DNA of 64,000 nucleotides from Bacteroidota bacterium (GTDB taxonomy: Bacteria > Bacteroidota > Bacteroidia > B-17B0 > Aurantibacillaceae), in NCBI GenBank assembly GCA_018267825.1, contig JAFDXR010000005.1, forward strand, positions 186,001 to 250,000, written 5' to 3'. Positions 52,755 to 53,581 of the stretch are shown piece by piece (position 1 is the stretch's first letter; each line of letters starts with the position of its first letter). Both the position numbers and the translations under genes were made by a program. The notes below the pieces were generated by a model that was not told the DNA's origin, made no database searches, and worked only from the letters and a program-made list of their open reading frames with translations.

Positions 52755-52802
52755 TTGCAAATTACTATAAAAAGTAGTAACTTCATGCTACAATTTATAG
52801 TA
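52755..52802 (+). promoter_or_regulatory. Promoter with paired inverted operators of the XRE-S24 gene
   Basis: TACTATAAAAAGTAG (52763-52777) is repeated in inverse orientation as CTACAATTTATAGTA (52788-52802), 13 of 15 positions identical, with a 10-bp spacer; the whole 40 bp is centred at 52782.5. A TTG (52755-52757) and a TAACTTCA -7-like box (52778-52785) place the promoter between the two arms. Predicted autoregulation by the protein encoded 2 bp further on. Confidence 0.65.
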
Positions 52803-52804
52803 CC

Positions 52805-53581
52805 ATGAGTCGTATAGCCAATAACATCAAATTCATGCGCCAGCTCAAAGGTCTCTCTCAGGAGCAGCTGGCCGACGATCTGAGCATTACACGATCGCGT
52901 TTAGGTGCCTATGAAGAAGGGCGCAACGAGCCACCCATTGACCTGCTGGTAAAGCTTTCCGATTTTTTTCATATCGCTGTTGATGCCCTTGTGCGCGGCG
53001 ATCTGAAGAAAACCAATCCCGATGCCATGATGCGCATCGGTAAAAACCGCATTTTATTCCCGGTGATCATCGATGAAGAAGGCGACGACCTCATCGAATT
53101 AATTCCGGTAAAAGCCAGTGCCGGCTACCTGCGCGGTTATGCCGACCCTGACTATGTGGAAAGACTCCCCCGTATGAAATTACCTTTTCTACCCGTGGGT
53201 AAACACAGGGCTTTCCCGATTCGCGGCGACAGTATGCCACCGCTTCGCGAAGGTTCTTTTGTGATCGGTAAATTTCTCGAAAGCCTCGATCATATTAAAG
53301 AAGGCGCAACTTACGTGATTGTCACCAAAGACGATGGCTTATCCTACAAACGGGTATTTAACCTCAACAAAAAGGATGGCACCGTTGAGCTGCATTCCGA
53401 CAATAAAATATACCCGCCTTTTAAAGTAAAACTCCACGATATACTTGAACTCTGGGAATTCACCTGCTCCATCAACCTGGGCGAATACAAAGAAGAAGAA
53501 CTCAATGTGGGCAGCATTATGAGCATGCTCCGCAACCTGCAGGTCGAAATAGAAACCATAAAAAAACAGGGCAAAAAATAG
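52805..53581 (+). CDS. XRE-family repressor with LexA-like S24 peptidase domain
   Basis: A 258-residue protein. The N-terminal HTH (IKFMRQLKGLSQEQLADDLSITRSRLGAYEEGR, given as residues 8-40) is XRE-type. The C-terminal S24 domain has Ser143 in RGDSMPP and Lys182 in SYKRVF, the nucleophile and general base of LexA/CI-type self-cleaving repressors; an Ala106-Gly107 pair is in the right place for the cleavage site. The tail ends in a coiled-coil segment. No phage gene is nearby, so this is a chromosomal regulator, possibly damage-responsive. Its own promoter is flanked by two operators. Confidence 0.88.
   Translation: MSRIANNIKFMRQLKGLSQEQLADDLSITRSRLGAYEEGRNEPPIDLLVKLSDFFHIAVDALVRGDLKKTNPDAMMRIGKNRILFPVIIDEEGDDLIELIPVKASAGYLRGYADPDYVERLPRMKLPFLPVGKHRAFPIRGDSMPPLREGSFVIGKFLESLDHIKEGATYVIVTKDDGLSYKRVFNLNKKDGTVELHSDNKIYPPFKVKLHDILELWEFTCSINLGEYKEEELNVGSIMSMLRNLQVEIETIKKQGKK

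Follow-up and report, generated by a model that had tools for sequence, protein, structure and literature searches.

The window (i.e., the whole stretch of 64,000 nucleotides analyzed here, from a Bacteroidota genome designated G000) encodes a 258-aa XRE-S24 regulator that is very probably an SOS repressor, specifically of the non-canonical LexA type known from Bacteroidetes. Judging from sequence comparisons, the protein would be cleaved in response to RecA and would act through operators of its own at its own gene, recA, dinB-dnaE, a radical-SAM gene, and an exonuclease gene; the altered form of these operators would stem from an asparagine at residue 41. In a group of Bacteroidota, such a repressor would serve as the damage-triggered switch for DNA repair, reading an altered DNA word that one amino acid appears to choose. 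The features are as follows (window coordinates).

52755-52757, + strand: -33-like TTG (29 of the 39 distinct orthologous promoters have a TTG 20 to 21 nt upstream of the -7 box)
52763-52779, unstranded: operator 1, TACTATAAAAAGTAGTA (core CTATAAAAAGTAG, 52765-52777), within the spacer between -33 and -7 (sequence; conserved in orthologs)
52778-52785, + strand: -7-like box TAACTTCA between the operators (38 of the 39 distinct orthologous promoters have TAnnTT)
52786-52802, unstranded: operator 2, TGCTACAATTTATAGTA (core CTACAATTTATAG, 52788-52800), positioned at the probable transcription start (sequence; conserved in orthologs)
52805-53581, + strand: XRE-S24 repressor gene (non-canonical LexA), 258 aa (ORF, Pfam, homolog search, model, Foldseek)
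52826-52984, + strand: HTH_3 DNA-binding domain, residues 8 to 60 (Pfam, model); the recognition helix, within it, comprises residues 30 to 37 in the predicted model
52925-52927, + strand: Asn41 codon, for the loop residue that covaries with the operator inner base (operator and residue comparisons across homologs)
53111-53434, + strand: Peptidase_S24 domain, residues 103 to 210 (Pfam)
53120-53125, + strand: Ala106-Gly107, presumed self-cleavage bond (A in 141/145 and G in 145/145 homologs)
53231-53233, + strand: Ser143, presumed nucleophile (145/145 homologs; aligned to the lambda CI catalytic Ser)
53348-53350, + strand: Lys182, presumed general base (145/145 homologs; aligned to the lambda CI catalytic Lys)

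The repressor gene is present in the ORF list of the window, and Pfam assigned HTH_3 (7e-13) and Peptidase_S24 (7e-07) to its product, with no match to the LexA winged helix (PF01726). Both an HTH of the PF01381 type and an S24 domain with an Ala-Gly bond and a Ser-Lys dyad are present. The preliminary description had numbered Ala106-Gly107, Ser143, and Lys182 correctly, and these residues are near-invariant among 145 aligned homologs (G107, S143, and K182 without exception). In a MAFFT alignment, Ser143 and Lys182 fall on the lambda CI residues that we take to be the catalytic pair. (In the phage collection, the lambda record J02459 [L351] has its cI coding region annotated as rexb.) The predicted structure was of middling quality (pLDDT, 71; pTM, 0.45), with low confidence in the cleavage loop. 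Foldseek searches with this model returned lambda-type repressors and LexA as top matches; with VIA-align, residues 97 to 225 matched LexA (Z, 12.0; rmsd, 2.5; 108 aligned) and residues 1 to 66 matched P22 c2 (Z, 10.7; rmsd, 1.6; 66 aligned).

G000 contains a single homolog of the repressor, and full-length orthologs were found in 53 of the 61 genomes of the same-family set. Genus g3 had no homolog of the regulator in any of its four genomes (G002, G011, G018, and G024), all of which carry recA, and a search of named genomes for relatives gave one distant HTH match only. PF01726 was not found in G000 by a search that was positive in 10 of 14 control genomes; weak matches occurred in 6 of 100 genomes searched. 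A weak PF01726 match lies about 0.8 kb upstream of recA (G065:C70:14133; L107), in a relative that has a Ser41 regulator. A second S24 protein of G000 (L206:1399-1977; G000:C28:65476; 193 aa) has no HTH_3 match, and no CTA-N7-TAG was present in its 3.2-kb locus.

Upstream of the repressor gene, TACTATAAAAAGTAG (52763-52777, + strand) and TACTATAAATTGTAG (52788-52802, - strand) differ at 2 of 15 positions, and the pair spans 40 bp, ending 2 bp before the ATG. These inverted 15-bp repeats had been described as the arms of a 40-bp dyad; the 13/15 identity, the 40-bp span, the flanked -7-like box, and the 2-bp distance to the start all hold, but the arms are each palindromic (TACTA-N7-TAGTA and TGCTA-N7-TAGTA) and are therefore two operators rather than halves of one dyad. 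The operators are 17-bp palindromes with the core CTAY-N5-RTAG, and their starts lie 23 bp apart. The -7-like box occupies most of the linker between them, with a TTG 20 nt upstream of it; TTG/TAnnTTTG is the promoter form of Bacteroidetes. Each of the 48 Asn41 orthologs of the same family has one or more CTAY-N5-RTAG cores within 130 bp, and the cores are paired exactly 23 bp apart in 41 of them (22 bp in one). Of 39 distinct tandem promoters, 38 have TAnnTT immediately behind the first operator. The second core and the ATG are separated by a variable 2 to 30 bp, so that the conserved unit is the operator pair plus the promoter. By this comparison of sequences, the tandem operators exceed chance. 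Operator 1 would fill the -33/-7 spacer, and operator 2 would cover the start site. Absence of the motif from orthologous promoters had been set as one refuting observation for the preliminary description; the opposite was found, the cores being kept in the Asn41 orthologs.

The prediction that other targets bear the same 15-mer did not hold: TACTATAAANNGTAG has two exact copies in the 4.82-Mb genome, both at the repressor promoter, and it cannot find other targets since it is unique to that place. As a target finder, the literal 15-mer was rejected; it has four one-mismatch places, three of them inside ORFs and one being the exonuclease promoter. The core CTAY-N5-RTAG is the signature that can be used instead. 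A scan for TRCTA-N7-TAGYA gave seven exact places, including the two operators of the repressor gene itself and one before recA (core about 135 bp upstream). The site CTATGTTTTGTAG precedes a SplB-like radical-SAM gene (within the longest ORF, though ahead of the likely start), and CTACGATTTATAG precedes an RNase_T+GIY-YIG exonuclease gene. In the promoter of dinB, which is the only Y-family polymerase gene found in G000 and precedes a PHP-domain (dnaE-like) gene, there is a one-mismatch core (CTACAAATTATGG) and, 23 bp farther along, a more degraded copy. The gene types recA, dinB-dnaE, SplB, and GIY-YIG exonuclease are among those given for the regulon in PMC8565304. Genome-wide, neither CTAYW5RTAG nor TGCTAYN5RTAG was enriched (16 versus 20 and 19 versus 27 in the reversed-pattern control), and the targets thus rest on place and conservation, which in relatives was examined for the recA and dinB sites, with the radical-SAM and exonuclease sites resting on G000.

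Further candidate targets in G000 include a restriction-type N6-methylase gene about 189 bp downstream of a perfect palindrome, TGCTATAAATTATAGCA (L182:1500-1695; G000:C28:18051), a DUF72 gene (L200), and a GNAT gene (L195). A tandem CTAC-N5-RTGG pair, 23 bp apart, also lies just before an 86-aa ORF (L261:1511-1575; G000:C2:43911-43974). This ORF has no Pfam match and no relative in the 59 other genomes searched; it is possibly a lineage-specific, SOS-induced small protein.

We examined 88 recA promoters. CTAY-N5-RTAG was present in 41 of the 41 promoters of genera g1, g2, g6, and g8 (about 1.1 expected by shuffling), and CTAA-N5-TTAG was present in all three of the sister genus g9, whose self-operators are likewise CTAA. 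The six promoters of g4, g5, g7, and g10 had no CTAY site despite CTAY self-operators, and the regulon therefore varies. For g3, the counts were 0/4 (CTAY) and 1/4 (CTAA), and for other families they were 0/34 and 1/34. Among 30 dinB loci fetched, 18 came from Asn41 genomes of the same family; their promoters carried an exact CTAY core in 11 cases, a core with one mismatch in 4, and none in 3. CTAA was found in all three promoters of Ala41 genomes of the same family, and nine other-family promoters carried neither CTAY nor CTAA. The self, recA, and dinB sites switch together with residue 41 of the repressor. The regulator and dinB are divergent neighbors in several relatives (G083:C93, G062:C19, G028:C1, G080:C11, and G069:C8), and some Ser41 homologs divergent from dinB (L143 and L144) have ATAC-N5-GTAT operators.

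The window operators (CTAT/CTAC) do not match CTAA-N5-TTAG; they keep the CTA-N7-TAG frame and carry C/T:G/A as the inner pair. Residue 41, which lies just after the recognition helix (YEEGR-N-EP in the window protein), was the only one of 66 HTH columns to separate the operator classes in a first set of 62 homologs with an assigned operator (C/T for Asn in 48/48 and for Ser in 4/4; A for Ala in 10/10). For a second set, 75 further homologs were fetched. Here, Ala41 went with A only or with A plus a mixed site (21 homologs), with mixed sites only (2), or with no site (7); Cys41 went with A (8, one also with a mixed site) or no site (1); Gly41 went with A (1); and Asn41 went with C/T (5) or no site (1). 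Ser41 was the diverse case, with C/T in 6 homologs (one plus a mixed site), one operator of each kind in 3, hybrid operators in 3, A in 1, and no site in 11. The remaining 5 (Thr, Arg, or His) had no site. Once the rows lacking a clean operator class had been removed (9/70 and 36/75), rules from the first set predicted the second correctly at column 41 in 30/31 cases, 8 being left without prediction for residues new to the rule, while the next-best HTH column reached 23/33 (70%) out of sample. The residue 41 comparison excluded rows L147 to L170 (identities of about 44% or lower), with L157, L158, L160, and L165 retained. Hybrid or mixed operators characterize 8 of the 18 Ser41 rows with a site, against 5 of 95 for Ala, Asn, Cys, and Gly; on this ground, a strict two-state rule for Ser41 was rejected. 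As an association among sequences, the rule is that Ala or Cys goes with A, Asn with C/T, and Ser with either or with a hybrid. Two homologs with TTAC-N5-GTAA operators (L131 and L135) also carry Asn41.

We somewhat favor the reading that this one loop residue sets the SOS box across Bacteroidota (CTAA for Ala/Cys, CTAC/CTAT for Asn, and both for Ser), such that a regulon could be rewired stepwise through a tolerant Ser state, with a single-copy repressor and no duplication. The main competing explanation, to which we give a clearly smaller chance, is that several HTH changes or common ancestry set the operator difference and that residue 41 is merely a clade marker. Most Asn41 rows belong to a single family, Ser41 is ambiguous, and only five contrasts lie on well-supported branches, all of which would suit a clade marker. 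The other HTH columns, however, fail out of sample (70% or less). On a quick, unrooted tree built without the HTH, in which some rows are long-branched, the operator class changes at least 10 times, giving five contrasts on well-supported branches (P = 0.06 to 0.125) and 10 on all branches. All five well-supported contrasts had the same direction in 172 of 200 draws, and four did, with one uninformative, in the other 28. Within genus g30, Asn41 genomes with C/T operators (G403, G248, and G421) sit among Ala41 genomes with A operators, which also speaks against a clade marker. Finally, residue 41 aligns by MAFFT with residue 56 of the lambda CI translation, which we take to be Asn55 in the usual Met-less count. 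According to PMC5171851, lambda CI Asn55 contacts operator positions 4 to 6 (i.e., the bases at the corresponding place). That residue 41 sets the operator would be a causal reading of these sequence comparisons.

The identification as an SOS repressor has two weaker competitors. A stress regulator blind to DNA damage is very unlikely; it might sense, for instance, stress at the cell surface or in nutrient supply by way of the neighboring histidine kinase and response regulator, and the recA sites would then belong to another factor. A NarL-type two-component pair does lie directly downstream of the repressor gene, but the self, recA, and dinB sites change along with repressor residue 41 and the cleavage residues are all conserved. 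Similarly improbable is a prophage-derived CI-type repressor controlling only itself or leftover phage genes, which the best PHROG match (phrog_4, a phage transcriptional repressor family) and the lambda CI-like fold of the model might suggest but which is disfavored by the full-length orthologs throughout most of the family, by the ordinary neighbors at 46 to 60 kb (the two-component pair and ATP synthase genes), and by the operators conserved at recA and dinB, the recA footprint alone already counting against it. The preliminary description had likewise seen no prophage nearby, and no phage genes were found among seven neighboring proteins checked or were evident in the 46- to 60-kb ORF list.

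For the SOS repressor, we infer binding, repression, cleavage, and induction along the following lines. A dimer with a phage-CI-like HTH and a self-cleaving S24 domain would bind CTAY-N5-RTAG palindromes. At the self-promoter, two dimers 23 bp apart would cover the -33/-7 spacer and the start site and keep the gene off, and the same repression would operate at the recA, dinB-dnaE, SplB-like radical-SAM, and GIY-YIG exonuclease genes. Upon DNA damage, RecA filaments would provoke cleavage of Ala106-Gly107 by the Ser143/Lys182 dyad, and the gene set would be switched on. An Asn in place of Ala at residue 41, which sits in the loop behind the recognition helix, would account for the departure of the operator from CTAA-N5-TTAG. 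The earlier suggestion of an autoregulated, chromosomal damage switch of the self-cleaving type gains support from the operators kept in orthologous promoters; it was partly borne out, being right in kind and wrong in the literal 15-mer, and it did not recognize an SOS repressor of a published kind.

Changes of LexA operator are frequent in evolution, and the model given for them in the Discussion of PMC8565304 is gene duplication and loss. Three genomes combine a Ser41 regulator with one operator of each kind (L277, L282, and L286; G334, G104, and G142), and each of them has one homolog match. Together with the single homolog of the window genome, they make a stepwise change of operator through Ser possible, in either direction on the unrooted tree. 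Relatives offer a natural series at the same promoters (CTAA with Ala, hybrid with Ser, and CTAY with Asn), and the path of operator change is thus directly testable by single substitutions. The residue 41 rule also allows the SOS box of unstudied Bacteroidota to be predicted from the protein alone.

Proteins of the same build are known from PMC8565304 (2021) as SOS repressors of Bacteroidetes that bind CTAA-N5-TTAG or GGA-N5-TCC. A text search of that paper gave neither CTAC nor GTAG, although Table S10 or Fig. 8A might contain a CTAY case; the paper was the only occurrence of "CTAA-N5-TTAG" in a literature text search, and a title-level listing of later work contained nothing on a CTAY operator variant. 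The kind of protein is therefore already published, and the operator switch and the one-residue rule appear to be new. With the CTAA group of that study (the P. actiniarum protein), likened here by its description rather than by protein sequence, the window protein shares the phage-CI-like HTH (PF01381) with an S24 domain, the Ala-Gly and Ser-Lys residues, autoregulation, the CTA-N7-TAG frame, and the predicted control of recA, dinB-dnaE, SplB, and GIY-YIG exonuclease genes; it differs in the operator inner pair (C/T:G/A versus A:T) and has Asn at residue 41. The Elizabethkingia anophelis LexA paralog described there (TTAC-AAATT-GTAA) has the inner base C and the N5 spacing found here, with T rather than C as the outer base. 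Canonical LexA (PF01726 plus PF00717) has the S24 domain and the predicted SOS role in common with the window protein, which lacks the winged helix and has another operator. The HTH fold is also that of lambda CI and the 933W repressor, and in the latter, according to PMC3317979, a residue outside the recognition helix (E51) sets the T/C preference at the inner base, operator position 6 (T-A or C-G preferred). Unlike these phage repressors, the window protein would be a chromosomal regulator of repair genes, with no prophage seen around it.
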